Shown here: positions 15,627 to 22,266 of the stretch, in pieces | Layout of the letters: the number at the start of each line of letters is the position of its first letter | Position numbering within the stretch: position 1 is the first letter of the stretch | Notes under the pieces: model-generated | What the model was told of the DNA's origin: nothing | The model's database searches: none | What the model saw: the letters and a program-made list of their open reading frames with translations, nothing else | Made by a program: the position numbers and the translations under genes | Assembly (NCBI RefSeq): GCF_000014745.1 | Contig: NC_008347.1 | Span: 2,620,001 to 2,684,000 of the forward strand | Reading direction: 5' to 3' | From: Maricaulis maris MCS10 | Lineage (GTDB): Bacteria > Pseudomonadota > Alphaproteobacteria > Caulobacterales > Maricaulaceae | Length of the DNA: 64,000 nucleotides

Positions 15627-15954
15627 TGGCTCCTCCCGACGCGGTCCAGCTAACACCAGTCCGGCACACGGAACAAGACAAGAACGACAGCCCCCGCGGT
15701 ACTCAACGTCCTGATCAGCCTATTCTTGCAAGCTAATCGCATTCGCAATGAAAAATCAGTGCAAACCATTCTCATAGTCATTTTTATTGCGGATCATTAT
15801 CATGAATACTCATATGCCATTGTTATTTCACGTTTTAATTTATTCACCTTTTGTTTGATCCGTGCCATTCGCACGCCTAGACTCAGACAGGCTTTACAAC
15901 AGGTTCCGGAAGTTCGGAGCCAACGCACATATAGATCCAGGGGGATTTTGAAAC
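15627..15954. other. 328-bp AT-rich intergenic region, shared upstream region of ruvC and the repeat-protein genes
   Basis: No gene seen. From about 15720 to 15880 the sequence is far more AT-rich than the rest of the window, with several TTGNNN/TATNNT-like stretches. It probably contains promoters for the divergent ruvC and Tat-repeat genes. Candidate iron-box sequences are listed separately. Confidence 0.6.
15761..15810 (+). promoter_or_regulatory. Two candidate Fur-type boxes upstream of the Tat-repeat genes
   Basis: Read on the minus strand, 15787-15802 contains TGATAATGATCCGCA and 15761-15775 contains TGAGAATGGTTTGCA. Both match the first half of the Fur 7-1-7 consensus (TGATAATnATTATCA) well and the second half only partly. 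Two such sites 26 bp apart in an AT-rich leader suggest iron-responsive control of the downstream genes, but the match is by eye only. Confidence 0.35.
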
Positions 15955-16290
15955 ATGGCCAAAAAAGGCAAATTGAGCCGTCGTTCGTTCCTGACGCGCG
16001 TCGCTGGCGGGACCATTGCCACGGGCGCCATCGCCACCGTTGCGGGCGCCGCAGTCGTGCAGCGCTACTCAGACGCCGATCCGGTTGATGGGGTTGCCCG
16101 CACCGGGATCACTGACTCGGATCCGAATGACTATGCCAACCACGGCACCAGCCGCACCGGTCGCACCGACAGCGACAGCGGCTCCTGTGCCGACCAGGCC
16201 GGTTTTGGTCGCGGCAACACTGGCTATACAGACACAGACAGCTCCGGCTGCTCCGACCCGGGCGGCCGCGGCCGCGGCCCGAGCCTGTAA
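15955..16290 (+). CDS. Tat-exported TDSD-repeat protein 1 (short)
   Basis: Not a family I recognise. The 111-residue product opens with a twin-arginine signal: KKGKLSRRSFLTRVAG then an Ala/Gly-rich hydrophobic stretch to about residue 35. Three recognisable units follow from residue 52, each TDSD/TDTD then a Gly/Asn-rich turn; they are the least regular of the three paralogues and include Cys78 and Cys99. A ribosome site GGGGG lies about 12 bp before the ATG. It shares its first 18 residues with the next two proteins while codon use differs, so the copies are old and selected at protein level. Probable exported, possibly metal-binding, structural protein; function unknown. Confidence 0.8.
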   Translation: MAKKGKLSRRSFLTRVAGGTIATGAIATVAGAAVVQRYSDADPVDGVARTGITDSDPNDYANHGTSRTGRTDSDSGSCADQAGFGRGNTGYTDTDSSGCSDPGGRGRGPSL

Positions 16291-16298
16291 GACACATG

Positions 16299-16322
16299 CA
16301 ACGGCGCCTTCAGGCGCCGTTG
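16299..16322 (+). terminator. Hairpin between repeat genes 1 and 2
   Basis: A perfect 10-bp stem (CAACGGCGCC and its complement, TTCA loop) lies 9 bp past the stop of repeat gene 1. It is followed only by a weak T-containing stretch (TCATATTCT). It could be a partial terminator or a 3'-end-stabilising hairpin that lets the three genes be expressed at different levels. Confidence 0.5.
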
Positions 16323-16392
16323 TCATATTCTGATCGTGAGGGACGCCAGGCAATTCGTGGGGGATTGCCGGACACGATAAAGAGGTATCTTC

Positions 16393-17016
16393 ATGGCCAA
16401 AAAAGGTAAGCTCAGCCGCCGCTCGTTCTTGACGAGAGTGGCCGGCACAGCCCTTGCCACCGGCGCAGCAGGTGCCGTGACCGGCACAGCAAGCGCTCAA
16501 AACCGCACCGGCCGCACCGACAGTGACACCGGCAGCTATGCCGACCGGGCCGGTTATGGCCGCACCGGAGCCACGGACAGCGACGGCGGCGCCAATGCTG
16601 ACCGGGCCGGCTACGGGCGCGGCAGCTCCGGCATTACCGACAGCGATAGCGGTGCCTATGCTGACCCCGCTGGCAATGGACGGGGAAGCTCCGGCATCAC
16701 GGACAGCGATAGCGGTGCTTATGCCGACCCGGCTGGCAATGGTCGCGGACGTTCCGGCATCACGGACAGCGACACAGGCTCGTATGCCGATCCCGCCGGC
16801 AATGGCCGCGGACGGCGCTCATCCGGGGTCACTGACAGCGATACGGGCACATACGCTGACCCTGTCGGCAATGGTCGTGGACGCTCAGGGGTCACCGACA
16901 GTGACAGCGGAGCCTATGCCGACCCAGCCGGAAACGGGCGCGGTCGCCGTTCCTGCTCCGACAGCGATTCAGGCACATACGCCGACCCCGGCGGCCGCGG
17001 TCGACGCTGCCGTTAA
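16393..17016 (+). CDS. Tat-exported TDSD-repeat protein 2 (8 repeats)
   Basis: The 207-residue product has the same twin-arginine signal as its neighbours, with a likely cleavage site TASA-QN after residue 35. Eight near-regular units from about residue 41 to the C terminus follow the pattern T-D-S-D-S/T-G-x-Y-A-D-P-A/V-G-N-G-R-G plus a 2-5 residue Arg/Ser/Gly spacer. Aspartates at positions 1, 3 and 9 of each unit have the spacing of small calcium loops. The last unit is bracketed by cysteines (RRSC before, RRCR after). No enzyme signature is seen. Ribosome site AGAGG lies upstream of the ATG. The protein is repetitive, Asp/Arg/Gly-rich and probably unstructured or solenoid-like when metal-free. 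Confidence 0.83.
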   Translation: MAKKGKLSRRSFLTRVAGTALATGAAGAVTGTASAQNRTGRTDSDTGSYADRAGYGRTGATDSDGGANADRAGYGRGSSGITDSDSGAYADPAGNGRGSSGITDSDSGAYADPAGNGRGRSGITDSDTGSYADPAGNGRGRRSSGVTDSDTGTYADPVGNGRGRSGVTDSDSGAYADPAGNGRGRRSCSDSDSGTYADPGGRGRRCR

Positions 17017-17073
17017 TCGAGACGTGAGCCGGGCTCGATCTGGTCGGGCCCGGAACCACACAGGGAGGCATAA

Positions 17074-17631
17074 ATGGCCAAACGTGGAAAACTTTCCCGC
17101 CGTTCGTTTCTGACCCGGGTCGCCGGAGCGGCCGTCGTGACCGGCGCCGCCGGAACCGTGGCGGGCTGCGCGACGACCGGCTACACTGACAGTGACAGCG
17201 GAGCCTATGCTGACCCGGCCGGAGCCGGGCGCGGCGGACGCCGCACAACCGGCGTTACGGATAGTGACACCGGCCGCTATGCCGATCCGGTCGGCAATGG
17301 CCGCGGCGGCGGCGTGACCGACAGCGACACAGGCCGCTATGCCGACCCTGTTGGCGGCGGGCGCGGCGGTGGCATCACCGATGCTGACAGCGGCAACTAT
17401 GCTGATCCGGCCGGTCGCGGACGCGGTAGCTCGGGAATCACCGACAATGACAGCGGCAGCTATGCTGACCCCGCCGGACGTGGACGCGGCGGCAACTACC
17501 GCGGCACCACCGACAGCGATACCGGTCGCTATGCCGACCCGGTTGGCGGAGGACGCGGCGGCAGCCGGTCCTGCACCGACAATGACTCCGGCAATTACGC
17601 TGATCCCGCCGGTGGGGGCCGACGCTGCTAG
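17074..17631 (+). CDS. Tat-exported TDSD-repeat protein 3, predicted lipoprotein (7 repeats)
   Basis: The 185-residue paralogue carries the same twin-arginine signal, but the hydrophobic region ends in VAGC (Cys32), a credible lipobox, so this copy may be a Tat-exported lipoprotein. Seven units from residue 37 to the end follow TDSD-S/T-G-x-YADP-A/V-G-x-GRG, with some TDAD and TDND variants. The final unit is again enclosed by cysteines (SRSC and terminal RRC), as in protein 2. AGGGAGG lies 6 bp upstream of the ATG. A strong terminator follows the stop. Function unknown. Confidence 0.83.
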   Translation: MAKRGKLSRRSFLTRVAGAAVVTGAAGTVAGCATTGYTDSDSGAYADPAGAGRGGRRTTGVTDSDTGRYADPVGNGRGGGVTDSDTGRYADPVGGGRGGGITDADSGNYADPAGRGRGSSGITDNDSGSYADPAGRGRGGNYRGTTDSDTGRYADPVGGGRGGSRSCTDNDSGNYADPAGGGRRC

Positions 17632-17650
17632 GCAATAATCGCTGACGAAG

Positions 17651-17682
17651 AACCCCTCCCGCTCCGGCGCGAGGGGTTTTTC
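17651..17682 (+). terminator. Rho-independent terminator after the Tat-repeat genes
   Basis: An AACCCCTC/GAGGGGTT stem with a GC-rich 12-base loop is followed by a TTTT(T) run, about 20 bp past the stop of repeat gene 3. It separates these genes transcriptionally from the dioxygenase gene that follows. Confidence 0.88.
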
Positions 17683-17774
17683 ATGCCTGCGACACTATTG
17701 ATCACACCCAGACAGGCGACAACGGCACCGGCCGCCGCTAACATTTTTTCGAACATTCGGGGGAGACCGACCAC

Positions 17775-18959
17775 ATGACTGCACCGCTCTGGCTGACCGA
17801 TCCGTTTCGCGCCATGATCGATCCAATTGATCGTGAAACCTTTTTTCGGGACTACCACGAAAAGAAGCCGTTGATCGTTCACCGTGAGGACCCGGGCCGG
17901 TATGCCGGCCTGCTGTCAATTGCCCGCATTGACGACATCGTCTCCAGCATCGACCTGCGTGAAGGGGCCCTGGACATGGCCCGCTCCGAACCCCCGGTGC
18001 AGCGCGAAGACTACATGTTCGATACCGGCTATGTGGACCGCGGCGGCGTCGCCAACCAGTATCGCCAAGGCGCGACGATCATCCTGCCCCAACTGCATAT
18101 GATGGATGCCGTGCTCGGCGAGTTCTGCCGCGCCGTTGAGTCGCTTTTGAGCTGCCATGTGCAGACCAATATCTATCTGACCCCGCCTGACAATCAGGGC
18201 TTCAACACCCATTACGACGATCACGACGTGTTCGTGATGCAGATCGAAGGTGAGAAGCTGTGGCGTTTCTACGAGACGCCGGTTGAAAACCCCTATCGCG
18301 GTGAAGGCTTCCGGCCGGATGCCCACAAGGCTGGAGAACCCGTTGCCGAATTCGTGCTCAAGGCGGGTGAGTGCATTTACGTTCCTCGCGGATTGATGCA
18401 CGACGCGCAAACGCATGGTGACACGGCGTCGCTCCACATCACGCTCGGCCTGATCGTGAAAACCTGGGCCGACCTGATGCTCGAAGCGGTCTCGGAAGTT
18501 GCCTTGCGCACGCCCGCCATGCGCCACTCACTCCCGCCTGGTTTTGCTCGCCCTGACTTTGATCGTACCGATGCGGAAGTCCAATTCAGGGACATGGCAG
18601 AGATGCTGGCCCGAGAGATGAGCGTTGACGGTGCAATGGACTTCTTTGTCGATAGCTTCATCCGGTCACGCGTGCCCAATACCCGTGGCGCCATCAGCAA
18701 TTATCTCGCACCCAATTCAGCCAGCCAGACCTTCAAACTGCGCCCGTTCGTGCCGTGGCGCTTTGCCGGTGATGAAACGGAGAACGTCATCATCACTGCT
18801 GGCGGCGAAGTCCGGTTTCCAGCCGAGGCCGAACAAGGTCTGCACACCCTGCTCGATGGCGGCACTGTGACTGCGGCGAGTTTCGTTGGTCAGGACGATA
18901 GCGCGGCGATTGAAACACTTGGCAAGCTCCATGCGTTTGGTCTGATCATTCCTGTTTGA
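17775..18959 (+). CDS. JmjC/cupin Fe(II)-2-oxoglutarate dioxygenase, ribosomal-oxygenase-like
   Basis: The 394-residue protein has the iron triad of the JmjC ribosomal oxygenase (YcfD/MINA53/NO66) type: His146-x-Asp148 in NTHYDDHDVF and a distal His209 in YVPRGLMHD. FVMQIEGEKLWRFYE between them matches the family's core strand. A C-terminal winged-helix-like region fits the same family. Characterised relatives hydroxylate an arginine or histidine of ribosomal proteins. The natural guess is a ribosomal-protein hydroxylase, but the gene directly follows three repeat proteins carrying a Gly-Arg-Gly in nearly every unit. GGGGGAG lies about 9 bp upstream of the ATG. A terminator separates it from the repeat genes. 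Confidence 0.85.
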   Translation: MTAPLWLTDPFRAMIDPIDRETFFRDYHEKKPLIVHREDPGRYAGLLSIARIDDIVSSIDLREGALDMARSEPPVQREDYMFDTGYVDRGGVANQYRQGATIILPQLHMMDAVLGEFCRAVESLLSCHVQTNIYLTPPDNQGFNTHYDDHDVFVMQIEGEKLWRFYETPVENPYRGEGFRPDAHKAGEPVAEFVLKAGECIYVPRGLMHDAQTHGDTASLHITLGLIVKTWADLMLEAVSEVALRTPAMRHSLPPGFARPDFDRTDAEVQFRDMAEMLAREMSVDGAMDFFVDSFIRSRVPNTRGAISNYLAPNSASQTFKLRPFVPWRFAGDETENVIITAGGEVRFPAEAEQGLHTLLDGGTVTAASFVGQDDSAAIETLGKLHAFGLIIPV

Positions 18960-19091
18960 TCTGCCCCTCACGTACGCCTTGTTATAATTCAAAACCTCTG
19001 CCTGCCTTGTCCGGGACATGGTTAAAACAGTAGATGCGCCCCTTTGTGGTGGCCCGACCTGTTCGGGCCACCGAATTTTTCGCGGGTTGGC

Positions 19092-20234
19092 ATGCGTTTT
19101 CGGTCTGGAACCATAACTGTTTCCCTTGCAGCAGTCTTTGCTGTCCTTTGGCTGATGTGGCCGTCGACCATCAATCCGGTCTACTGGGACGAGCCGGAAG
19201 CTCCTGCCATGACAGGTCCGCTCGCCCCCAATACCGCCTTGGGGTCGGCCCAGTTCTACGATCTCGGCGCAAGCGGAACGGCCCACAGCGTCGCGCTGGG
19301 CGAGAATGGTGAGATCTATTCCGGCAATGCTTCCGGCAAAATCGTCAGGATCGAATCGCCCGGCATGACGCCGACAGTGATCGCTGAACTCGATGACCTG
19401 CCGATTTCTGGTCTGGCCTGGATTGGTTCCAGCACGCTTGGTGCGACGACGTCAGACGGGTTGTTCGCGGTCAACGTCATCTCCGGCGACGCGACCCGCG
19501 TAAGTGTCGGCGTGCCGGGTTACCCATTCGGCTTTGCCAATGACCTTGCCATCACCAGACAAGGCGAGATCTACTTCACCGACTCGTCAGTATTGCACGA
19601 TGAAGGCACCCCTGACGGGGATCACGTGCTGGACATGCTCGAGAACCGCCCACACGGCGCGCTATATGTCTGGGATCCGCGCACGCACCAGACCCGGCTT
19701 GCGGCTGACCGCCTCTACTATCCTAACGGAATCGCCCTCGCCTCTGACGGCCTCTCGATCTATGTCTCGGAAACCTTCCGTTATCGGATACTGCGGCACT
19801 GGATCGATGGCCCGCGACGCGGTGAGACTGAAGTTTTTGCCGGCAATCTGCCCGGCCTGCCCGACGGGCTGGCGACCGATAATTCCGGCCACCTGTTCGT
19901 CGCCCTTCCCGCCGGACGCAGCTCGGCCTTGCGGACAATCAGGACACGCCCGTGGCTCGCACGGATCGTTTCGCGACTGCCAGCCTGGGCACGGCCTGAT
20001 GGCGGCTCGGCGAGGCCATTCATCGCCGTTCTTGACGAGCAAAACGCCGAAATCATCGCGTCGTTCCATGATCCCGAGAACCGGCTTTGCCATGTCTCGA
20101 ACATGGTCCTGACCGAGGACCAGGACCTCTGGTTCGGGTCATCCGATTGCAGCTATATCGCCTGGCTTCCACAGGCCGCCGTACAGGCTGGGTTGCAAGC
20201 CCCCGGCACGACGGGTTTCGTCGCCGGCGACTGA
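19092..20234 (+). CDS. Membrane-anchored SMP-30/strictosidine-synthase-like beta-propeller
   Basis: The 380-residue product has one N-terminal hydrophobic helix (about 9-24), probably a signal anchor, followed by a six-bladed propeller of the SMP-30/gluconolactonase/strictosidine-synthase-like superfamily. Evidence includes FANDLAITRQGEIYFTDSS, LYYPNGIALASDGLSIYVSE and LPGLPDGLATDNSGHLFVA. Known relatives are calcium-dependent lactonases or esterases. The ATG at 19092 is preferred over an upstream frame start at 19044 because it begins the signal-like segment. Substrate is unknown. Confidence 0.78.
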   Translation: MRFRSGTITVSLAAVFAVLWLMWPSTINPVYWDEPEAPAMTGPLAPNTALGSAQFYDLGASGTAHSVALGENGEIYSGNASGKIVRIESPGMTPTVIAELDDLPISGLAWIGSSTLGATTSDGLFAVNVISGDATRVSVGVPGYPFGFANDLAITRQGEIYFTDSSVLHDEGTPDGDHVLDMLENRPHGALYVWDPRTHQTRLAADRLYYPNGIALASDGLSIYVSETFRYRILRHWIDGPRRGETEVFAGNLPGLPDGLATDNSGHLFVALPAGRSSALRTIRTRPWLARIVSRLPAWARPDGGSARPFIAVLDEQNAEIIASFHDPENRLCHVSNMVLTEDQDLWFGSSDCSYIAWLPQAAVQAGLQAPGTTGFVAGD

Positions 20235-20283
20235 CCTGGCCATCGGGGACGGGTCAGGGCGAAGGTCCGCAAACCTGATCGGA

Positions 20284-22266
20284 TCAGGCCAGCAACGCCT
20301 CGGCCTGCTCGACAATCGCCGCTGAGGTGATCCCGAAATGTGCGTACAGGTCCTCGGCCGGCGCGCTTGCACCGAAACCCGTCATTCCGACAAATCCGCC
20401 CTTGCGGCCGATCACCTGATCCCAGCCAAAGCGCAGCGCCGCCTCACAGGCAACCACTGGAATGCCGGCGGGGAAAAGCTCATCGAGATAGGCGTCGCCC
20501 TGCTCAAGCAGGAGATCCAGGCACGGGGCTGACACCACACGCACTTTGCGGCCCTGGGCGCGCAAGGTCCGGGCCGCCTCGACAGCCAGACAGACTTCCG
20601 ATCCGGTTGCGACCAGGACAATGTCCGGCGAACCGACATCATCGGACAGAGTATAGGCGCCGCTGGCAGACAGGTTGGTGCTGCCGTCATCACTGCGCAG
20701 GAACGGCAGTTTCTGGCGCGACAGGGCGAGCACGGAGGGGCCGTCGATCCGGCGCAGTGCCAAGTCCCATGCCTCGGCCGTCTCGAGCGCATCAGCCGGA
20801 CGGAAGACATGCATGTTCGGGATGGCCCGCAGCGAGGCCAGTGTTTCAACCGGCTGATGGGTCGGGCCGTCTTCACCCAGACCGATCGAGTCATGCGTCA
20901 TCACGTAGACTACCGGTTGATGCATCAGGGAGGACAGGCGCATCGACGGACGGCAATAATCGGCGAAAACGAGGAATGTCGCGACATGCGGCCGGAAGCC
21001 ACCATGCAGGGACATGCCATTGGCGCACGCCGCCATGCCATGTTCACGAACGCCGAAATGGATGTACTGGCCGGCATAGTCGCCTGCCTTCACGATGCCT
21101 ACGTCCGGCGTCTTGGTGAGATTGGAGCCGGCGAGATCGGCGGATCCACCGGCCAGGCTGGGCCAGTCACCAATGATCGCGGCCAGCGTCTGACCGGATG
21201 CGGCGCGGGAGGCCAGGACAGGCTTTTCGGCCGCGACTTTCTGGCGCCAAGCGTCCAGGGCGGCGATCTCGGTTTCACCCGGTTCACCGGAAATCTGGGC
21301 GACGAAATCGTCGGCCCGGTCCGCTCCGGCCAACCGCTCCTGCCAGGCCTGATGGGCATCCGCCGAGCCAGTCGCCCGCCAAGCATCCAAAATTTCTTCG
21401 GGAATTTCAAACGGAGCGGCTGTCCAGCCGAGCGCCTCACGCGCGCCGGCGATCTCGTCAGCACCGAGCGGGGCACCATGGCTGCCAGCCGTGCCGGCCT
21501 TGGTCGGTGCGCCATAGCCGATTGTTGTGCGGCAGGCGATAAGGACCGGTTTGTCGGATGATCGGGCTTTCTGCAGGGCGGCATCGATGGCGGCGTGGTC
21601 ATGGCCGTCAATGCGCGAGACCGACCAACCAGCCGCCTCGAAACGTTTGAGCACATCCGTGCTTTCCGAAAGGTCCGTCGGGCCATCAATCGAGATCTCA
21701 TTATCGTCCCACAGGACACAGAAACGATTGAGGCCCAGATGCCCGGCCAGGGAAATGGCCTCGTGGGAAATACCTTCCTGCAGGTCGCCATCAGACGCGA
21801 TGACCCAGGTACGGTGATCGACGAGATCATCACCATAGCGCGCATTCATCATGCGCTCGGCGAGTGCCATGCCGACCGACATCGAAATCCCCTGCCCCAG
21901 CGGGCCGGTCGTCGCCTCGACACCTGGCGTGTGACCGTATTCCGGGTGGCCGGCGGTCAGGCTGTCCAGCTGGCGGAACTTCTTCAGCTCATCCATGCTG
22001 ATGTCCTCAAACCCGGCCAGATGCAGGATCGAGTAGAGCAACATGGAACCGTGACCGGCTGACAGGACGAAGCGGTCCCGATCAGCCCAGGCTGGCGCTG
22101 CCGGATCGAATTTCATGTGTTTCGACCACAAGACGGCGGCAACATCCGCCATGCCCATCGGCATGCCCGGATGGCCTGAATTGGCTTGCTGGACCGCGTC
22201 CATCGACAGCGCCCGGATGGCATTGGCCATATCGGACATCGAAACTGGGTTGGAAGGCGTGGTCAT
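20284..22266 (-). CDS. tkt: Transketolase
   Basis: Thiamine-diphosphate enzyme of the pentose phosphate pathway transferring two-carbon ketol units. It has 660 residues, full length, with an N-terminal ThDP-binding domain (GHPGMPMGMADVA, GDGDLQEG-type SDGDLQEGISHEA), a central pyrimidine-binding domain (REHGMAACANGM, HDSIGLGEDGPTHQP) and a C-terminal domain. It is convergent with the SMP-30-like gene and lies 27 bp after pgi, suggesting a pgi-tkt operon. In related bacteria tkt often sits beside zapA; here it does not. Confidence 0.97.
   Translation of the reverse strand: MTTPSNPVSMSDMANAIRALSMDAVQQANSGHPGMPMGMADVAAVLWSKHMKFDPAAPAWADRDRFVLSAGHGSMLLYSILHLAGFEDISMDELKKFRQLDSLTAGHPEYGHTPGVEATTGPLGQGISMSVGMALAERMMNARYGDDLVDHRTWVIASDGDLQEGISHEAISLAGHLGLNRFCVLWDDNEISIDGPTDLSESTDVLKRFEAAGWSVSRIDGHDHAAIDAALQKARSSDKPVLIACRTTIGYGAPTKAGTAGSHGAPLGADEIAGAREALGWTAAPFEIPEEILDAWRATGSADAHQAWQERLAGADRADDFVAQISGEPGETEIAALDAWRQKVAAEKPVLASRAASGQTLAAIIGDWPSLAGGSADLAGSNLTKTPDVGIVKAGDYAGQYIHFGVREHGMAACANGMSLHGGFRPHVATFLVFADYCRPSMRLSSLMHQPVVYVMTHDSIGLGEDGPTHQPVETLASLRAIPNMHVFRPADALETAEAWDLALRRIDGPSVLALSRQKLPFLRSDDGSTNLSASGAYTLSDDVGSPDIVLVATGSEVCLAVEAARTLRAQGRKVRVVSAPCLDLLLEQGDAYLDELFPAGIPVVACEAALRFGWDQVIGRKGGFVGMTGFGASAPAEDLYAHFGITSAAIVEQAEALLA

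Follow-up and report, generated by a model that had tools for sequence, protein, structure and literature searches.

The closest described relatives of the oxygenase considered here are NO66 and MINA53, members of the JmjC_2 family (PF08007) that are, by the titles of their Protein Data Bank (PDB) entries, histidine hydroxylases of ribosomal proteins. We analyzed a 64,000-nucleotide stretch of the Maricaulis maris MCS10 genome (contig NC_008347.1, positions 2,620,001 to 2,684,000; hereafter the window), in which a gene for a JmjC_2 2-oxoglutarate (2OG)/Fe(II) oxygenase follows three genes for aspartate-rich tandem-repeat proteins with twin-arginine translocation (Tat) leaders. We propose that these form a dedicated enzyme-substrate pair, in which the oxygenase probably hydroxylates the repeats, which would then be exported through Tat. 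The window enzyme shares its fold and iron-binding residues with NO66 and MINA53 (PDB sequence comparison, E = 1.4e-49), and its top Foldseek match is NO66 (4ccn; TM score 0.76 by query length, about 23% identity). However, whereas the described enzymes act on ribosomal proteins, gene order ties the window enzyme to exported aspartate repeats, and this linkage points to the repeat proteins, rather than a ribosomal protein, as its candidate substrate.

Other oxygenases resemble the system in part. For Bacillus subtilis YxbC, a bacterial JmjC_2-type protein, we know of no substrate, and the substrates of the JmjC oxygenase FIH are intracellular and are not known to be dedicated to FIH. YxbC (1vrb, 7zcc) is titled a putative asparaginyl hydroxylase and matches the window enzyme at E = 3.2e-22, but it is shorter (341 to 342 residues in the PDB versus 394 aa). 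FIH acts on ankyrin repeats, that is, on repeat proteins, with Asp among its targets according to PDB titles, but it is structurally far from the window enzyme (TM about 0.37). In biphenomycin, a ribosomally synthesized and posttranslationally modified peptide (RiPP), the JmjC protein BipG is described in excerpts of PMC12707348 as hydroxylating an ornithine within the precursor; there, as in our proposal, a JmjC oxygenase acts on a ribosomal product encoded nearby. According to the same excerpts biphenomycin involves several enzymes and proteolytic release of the core, whereas here we find tandem repeats, predicted Tat export and apparently one enzyme. Two further traits are RiPP-like, namely a precursor gene beside the gene of an enzyme whose modifying role we infer (adjacent in 32 of 37 loci) and a leader motif whose occurrence follows the enzyme, the latter in the partners of one subclade and not in the window's own proteins. 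The system appears to work like RiPP tailoring, with RiPP status as an analogy.

The three repeat genes are consecutive on the forward strand: gene 1 (15955 to 16290, 111 aa), gene 2 (16393 to 17016, 207 aa) and gene 3 (17074 to 17631, 185 aa). An initial annotation of the window had placed three open reading frames (ORFs) with a shared twin-arginine leader here, and we observe the same: all three products begin with MAK[KR]GKLSRRSFLTRVAG and carry a Tat motif of the S-R-R-x-F-L type with a hydrophobic stretch (SRRSFLTRVAG, judged by eye). The repeat consensus is TDSD-[ST]-GxYADP-[AV]-GxGRG, with 1, 8 and 7 strict cores (D.D.G...D..G.G) in genes 1, 2 and 3, whereas 2000 shuffles of the part of each protein after residue 35 gave 0.001, 0.002 and 0.007 on average and never more than 1. 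The repeats of genes 2 and 3 are therefore far beyond chance, and their annotated 8 and 7 copies hold. The three copies annotated for gene 1 are reached only when degenerate units are included (TDSDPNDYANHG, TDTDSSGCSDPGGRG; two or three such units beside one strict unit), and its single strict core does not exceed the shuffle maximum, so that the count alone is unconvincing; the core is kept in the orthologues of gene 1. Compared with orthologues in three related loci (L007, L009, L010), the ratio of nonsynonymous to synonymous divergence (dN/dS) is 0.017 to 0.052 for gene 1, 0.048 to 0.066 for gene 2 and 0.067 to 0.090 for gene 3, at a dS of 0.8 to 1.7 that is partly near saturation. All three genes are under purifying selection, which agrees with the earlier reading of silent codon differences as selection on the peptide.

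The leader of the gene 3 product ends in a lipobox (TVAGC, Cys32), and this protein is a predicted Tat-dependent lipoprotein, while the gene 2 product has a signal peptidase I-like site (TASA/QN, judged by eye). In both, the terminal unit is flanked by two cysteines (C-unit-C), and after residue 35 the three products are 14 to 16% Asp, with zero Glu and zero Lys. The annotated absence of a recognized family stands: Pfam gives no match to the three products at E ≤ 1, a two-unit profile gives none in the PDB at E ≤ 10, and NCBIfam gives nothing above cut-off for the repeat proteins, its weak matches to TIGR02811, TIGR01409 (11.0 to 13.3 bits, under the cut-off of 16.7) and, for gene 3, TIGR04465 starting in the leader. 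TIGR02811, a formate dehydrogenase region TAT target model, was rejected as an identity (14.5 to 21.1 bits versus 48.45 needed, signal region only). The structure prediction suggested for a 7-unit protein, here that of gene 3, yielded no confident fold (AlphaFold2, mean predicted local distance difference test [pLDDT] 42.9). The genome (one contig of 3,368,780 bases) holds two further repeat genes, at 1877221 (L003) and 666831 (L004). The initial annotation was right to see a dedicated system but overlooked its key part, the adjacent JmjC_2 gene, along with the lipobox, the signal peptidase I-like site, the C-unit-C ends, the lack of Glu and Lys and the two extra members.

The JmjC_2 gene (17775 to 18959, forward strand, 394 aa) encodes the proposed repeat-modifying enzyme. 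Its product matches PF08007 at E = 3.8e-28 (98 bits versus a cut-off of 22) and is the sole match above cut-off in this genome; a second match below the cut-off (L045) was discarded as only a 134-aa cupin. Residues H146, D148, H209 and K161 are unchanged across 18 aligned enzyme members, and we take the first three to be the HxD...H iron triad and K161 to be the 2OG-binding lysine. The product is thus a predicted oxygenase whose catalytic residues are intact. Its dN/dS against the same three orthologous loci is 0.047 to 0.053, and its AlphaFold2 model is confident (pLDDT 92.0), with NO66 and MINA53 as the nearest folds, followed by YcfD and YxbC and, distantly, FIH. Comparison with PDB sequences agrees on NO66, MINA, YxbC and YcfD as relatives. 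NCBIfam names match weakly for 3 of the 18 members, and the window enzyme has none.

A family scan of genome contigs returned 37 loci, the nearest in Maricaulis. Most are from Maricaulis and its relatives, with others in Parasphingopyxis, Pararhodobacter and metagenome-assembled genomes (MAGs) under other labels. The repeat family is real and mainly alphaproteobacterial, and the initial annotation's expectation, a shared leader and varying copy number throughout a clade, is borne out by 85 proteins in the loci and the window, with homologues outside this genome and differing numbers of units. Across their 433 full units, Asp occupies positions 2 and 4 in 99.8 and 100% of cases; units were selected for T/S/N/R/D at position 1, D/N at positions 2 and 4, G/N at position 13 and G at position 15, so that conservation at these five positions is partly by construction. 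The third Asp (position 10), which was free of selection criteria, is still conserved in 99.5% of units, with Gly at position 6 in 98.2% and Arg at position 16 in 91.5%. The C-unit-C end is present in 31 of the 85 proteins, and a shorter unit, TDSDPSDPVGNGR, with its variants (also TDSDPSDPVGNG), occurs 57 times in the family. Arg is missing from nearly all of the units listed for one locus (L043, with one GYGRG seen), yet the enzyme is present there, and the L089 repeat partner likewise has an enzyme and no unit Arg. A plasmid search with gene 3 as the query gave no match, and we found no description in print of these repeats or of their JmjC pairing in searches of open-access papers, which leave most subscription journals outside. 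As side observations, two contigs filed under an Anaerolineae MAG (L036, L049) share near-identical repeat and enzyme genes with an alphaproteobacterial MAG (L038, L050) and are probably misbinned, and the repeat stretch of L088 reached 30.5 bits against a suprabasin repeat model (cut-off 31), which we took as a composition effect.

The enzyme gene adjoins repeat genes in 32 of the 37 loci, on the same strand and downstream of them in 31 and divergent in one (L041). Another neighbor, ruvC, is common to 25 loci, and in five (L026, L027, L040, L041, L043) the repeat and enzyme genes are the only ones in common with the window. Genome-wide searches for four of the five nonadjacent loci (L035, L036, L039, L042) located the enzyme elsewhere in every case, three times next to a whole repeat gene and once (L049, from the genome of L036) next to a repeat gene of which the contig edge leaves only the end; the fifth, L038, lay outside that search and has the same assembly prefix as L035.

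Enzyme and repeats also co-occur across genomes. In a family-level sample of 79 genomes, 24 have repeats, and the enzyme (at least 467 bits) is found in the same 24 and in one more, G392, where the match starts at base 3 of a contig; other JmjC_2 hits in this sample score at most 133 bits. Within three genera (g281, g290, g291) presence varies, always with repeats and enzyme together. The class-level sample of 385 genomes has repeats in 10 and the enzyme (at least 337 bits, with the next-best score at 175) in those 10 as well as in G284 and G208, while a further 40 genomes have JmjC_2 hits that are all weaker, and repeats are absent from every one of them. G284 proved to carry a diverged Tat repeat gene directly upstream of its enzyme, below the profile threshold used, which brings the enzyme genomes with repeat proteins to 11 of 12 in the class sample, next to 24 of 25 in the family sample. 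Among 398 genomes at the phylum level, the enzyme occurs in 8, all from one class, and the four newly met enzyme genomes all carry Tat repeat genes in the 4.2-kb stretches retrieved. Repeats without the enzyme were seen in none of the genomes sampled.

Trees set the repeat-linked enzymes against class-sample and plasmid JmjC_2 proteins, NO66 and MINA having been compared with the window enzyme by PDB sequence and fold instead. The repeat-linked enzymes, with that of G208 nested among them, form one side of a branch supported at 100/100 in a first tree, opposite 18 further JmjC_2 proteins of the class sample (the 18 lower-scoring hits with loci returned), and at 100/99 in a second, opposite 19 others. 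Three long-branched rows (L101, L107, L110), omitted from the second tree, were part of the first, where the split was the same; long branches that face each other across the split may mislead, and the L170 and L171 enzymes are absent from the tree. Within the repeat-linked clade, the partners of one 11-row subclade (100/99) carry a leader motif ahead of the Tat signal, L-x-[DP]-x-x-I. It is seen directly for 9 of the 11 rows, of which L050 and L084 represent one genome; for L049 the N terminus of the partner lies off the contig and the motif is seen in L036 from the same genome, and for the G208 row no partner was found. Motifs of L050, L084, L123 and L171 were identified by inspection, and false pattern matches in L026 (an unrelated ORF) and L028 (before the start codon) were excluded. 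Outside the subclade, the partners of the other 21 repeat-linked rows all lack the motif, the window's own proteins included. Leader and enzyme look to have coevolved.

A short-peptide form appears on Streptomyces clavuligerus plasmids, whose JmjC_2 protein is 35.8% identical to the window enzyme across 94% of its length, scores 296 bits with the profile and falls inside the repeat-linked clade on a long branch that leaves its exact place unsure. Directly upstream lies a gene for a peptide of 48 residues, MDDKKTSLEPDEIEVIPPVSTPDFVIADNDPSDPPIAIADPDPFDPVI, in which the leader motif precedes two D-x-D-P-x-D-P cores (ADNDPSDPP, ADPDPFDPV) that resemble the family's short unit and lack the unit Arg. 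As this peptide was reached via the enzyme alone, it offers separate evidence that D-x-D-P-x-D is the target. The pair is followed downstream by a gene for an S9 peptidase, in the opposite orientation, and one for an ATP-binding cassette (ABC) transporter, and the S. clavuligerus region (L164, 5784 to 7179; one record examined) is a candidate RiPP cluster. Other plasmid JmjC_2 proteins (two from Streptomyces, one from Nocardia, one from Escherichia coli) score 89 to 158 bits and fall outside the clade, and the small ORFs beside the two Streptomyces genes have no D-x-D core. In those two plasmids (L166, 2562 to 4808; L167, 2554 to 4797) the gene order small ORF, JmjC_2, aldo/keto reductase is shared, and the product of the small ORF ends in RGRNAIPSDGGGTGKSDGND. 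A mobilizable E. coli plasmid of 7,947 bases (L165, 429 to 3636; one examined, with 25 Escherichia records matching) carries in a row an ORF with a Cys/Gly-rich product tail, an ABC transporter gene and a JmjC_2 (cupin) gene whose product lies outside the repeat-linked clade.

From these observations we consider it likely that the JmjC_2 enzyme modifies the repeat proteins. In the mechanism we propose, the oxygenase would use Fe(II), 2OG and O2 to hydroxylate the tandem T-D-x-D-x-G-x-x-x-D-P-x-G-x-G units in the cytosol, recognizing its substrate through the N-terminal leader, the repeat motif or both. On balance we favor Asp as the residue modified, the most likely site being one of the three near-invariant aspartates per unit. 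The modified chains would then leave via Tat, the gene 2 product becoming soluble in the periplasm and the gene 3 product a lipoprotein, and there the repeats would act as a modified Asp-rich polymer that could plausibly bind metal, Fe(III) or Ca for example. That metal binding is the purpose of the repeats is possible but doubtful. The Tat route suits this scheme, as an Fe/2OG enzyme working in the cytosol has to reach its substrate prior to export. The initial annotation held that Tat export implies folding, cofactor binding or modification in the cytosol. Folding or a cofactor does not strictly follow, since Tat, in the excerpts of PMC6708511, tolerates unstructured hydrophilic phenylalanine-glycine (FG) repeat segments of 100 to 120 residues, with efficiency dropping with length, but of the options named cytosolic modification is the best supported. 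The same excerpts report that Tat rejected a single-chain variable fragment bearing an unstructured tail, and the mature parts of the gene 2 and gene 3 products, at about 172 and 154 residues, are above the FG length.

Upstream of gene 1 by 167 bp lies a Fur-type 7-1-7 palindrome-like site, TGCGGATCATTATCA (15788 to 15802, no strand assigned), which matches 13 of 14 defined positions and is a tentative operator; the 7-1-7 architecture of Fur boxes is given in excerpts of PMC11353095. Scanning 37 loci (701,097 bases; 38 were listed and L036 was skipped as too short) gave 18 sites with at least 13 of 14 matches, 15 of them within 350 bp before the first repeat gene. Ten loci carry such an upstream site and 27 have none at this threshold; the exact sequence TGATAATGATTATCA occurs in the related loci L013, L015 and L016. 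The pattern was drawn post hoc, after hits had been seen, and the binomial P of 8e-24 for the clustering is no true probability because the loci are related. When a single mismatch is permitted, the genome contains 9 sites, compared with 1 for the reversed pattern, and the genes adjoining the other 8 could not be tied to iron as judged by eye from translations; 12/14-match sites occur in 2 of 27 TonB-receptor upstream regions. The Fur-type signal is strong in space and weak in meaning, and the boxes hint only weakly at a metal role. Among the surrounding features, a weak terminator-like hairpin (17661 to 17677, forward strand) between gene 3 and the JmjC_2 gene may separate their transcription; the region from 15650 to 20400 holds 5 terminator-like sites versus a mean of 3.3 in shuffles. 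Downstream of the JmjC_2 gene is a gene for a strictosidine synthase-like/SMP-30 protein (19044 to 20234), which, being common to 17 of the 37 loci, is a companion in close relatives only. With neighbors named by Pfam, we recognized no protease gene directly beside the window genes.

Several observations weigh against a dedicated enzyme-substrate pair. The genome samples are not fully independent tests of co-occurrence, because some genomes (G000 and G154 at least) fed the profiles and thresholds were set after the score gap had been seen. In one 92%-complete genome, G208, the clade enzyme lies on a contig of 5,968 bases, and we found no repeat protein; its enzyme gene (L118) stands beside an M48 peptidase gene (HtpX-like, by eye), and it possibly represents an undiscovered partner type. 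The loci L003 and L004 of the M. maris genome have repeats without an adjacent enzyme, and G009 and G237 each have one enzyme match and repeats on several contigs. Between gene 3 and the enzyme gene lie 143 bp that include the terminator-like hairpin, and adjacency could reflect shared regulation rather than an enzyme with its substrate. Nor does genetic linkage of a JmjC-related protein need to show as activity, since coexpressed PbsQ added no further modification to RiPP precursors in the excerpts of PMC12257519. Finally, homology does not imply Asp as the target, because NO66 and MINA hydroxylate His and the more distant YcfD hydroxylates Arg.

This last point bears on a reading that overlaps with ours and does not exclude it, namely that the enzyme, like YcfD, hydroxylates the Arg of GRG or another non-Asp residue of the repeat. 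The frequency of Arg in the units, its Gly-rich setting and the arginyl hydroxylases among JmjC_2 relatives speak for it, but unit Arg seems dispensable, as clade enzymes also accompany sequences that keep their aspartates but lack it (the L089 partner, the S. clavuligerus core and nearly all of the units listed for L043). YcfD-type proteins are moreover distant from the window enzyme (PDB E = 3.7e-8 to 0.0024, versus 1.4e-49 for NO66), and we regard a non-Asp target as a poor prospect. About as unlikely, in our judgment, are unmodified Ca2+-binding repeats (EF-hand, dockerin or thrombospondin-type loops) that fold outside the cell as an envelope structure while the oxygenase targets something else. 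The D-x-D-x-G-x-x-x-D spacing is reminiscent of metal-binding loops, and one relative (L035, 3308 to 4117) bears a C-terminal peptidoglycan-binding domain (PF01471, E = 1.6e-18) that points to a cell-wall location. However, no known Ca-binding repeat family matched the repeats in the Pfam and PDB searches, the short unit D-x-D-P-x-D alters the spacing, and neither the tight link to the enzyme nor Tat export would be explained.

It is very unlikely that the genes are merely coregulated neighbors, sharing an iron-responsive region without acting on each other, with the enzyme a ribosomal oxygenase. The concentration of Fur-type sites upstream of repeat genes (15 of the 18 in 701 kb) would suit such an arrangement, as would the ribosomal oxygenases being the nearest folds. 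Against this, the clade enzyme is absent from sampled repeat-free relatives except G392 (on a cut contig), unlike a housekeeping ribosome modifier; the pairing persists across differing gene contexts and with the S. clavuligerus peptide, and the leader motif tracks the enzyme subclade. Hardly credible is the notion of functionless low-complexity sequence spread by gene conversion: tandem repeats slip readily, and copy number does differ among the 85 proteins, but dN/dS is 0.02 to 0.09 at a dS of 0.8 to 1.7, Asp and Gly are near-invariant, and the presence of repeats is coupled to the enzyme. Chance and low complexity were ruled out by the shuffles for genes 2 and 3 and by dN/dS for all three, in keeping with the initial annotation's view that the copies are not noise.

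The enzyme-repeat system is real and unrecognized so far; read as a dedicated pair, which we prefer, it is a variant of oxygenase-modified ribosomal products and possibly a new class. A fuller version, in which Fur-controlled, Tat-exported hydroxyaspartate polymers made by an NO66-like JmjC enzyme chelate iron or another metal, with a short-peptide version in Streptomyces, seems to us rather unlikely. With the pair, a bacterial JmjC_2 subfamily gains a concrete and testable candidate substrate, and with one enzyme acting on many repeats the mass of the product would simply reveal how many units are modified, at 16 Da for each. The S. clavuligerus peptide points to a natural product that is related. 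If true, the proposal would add a route in which O2- and iron-dependent modification in the cytosol comes before Tat export, and it may have brought to light a genetically encoded hydroxyaspartate polymer.

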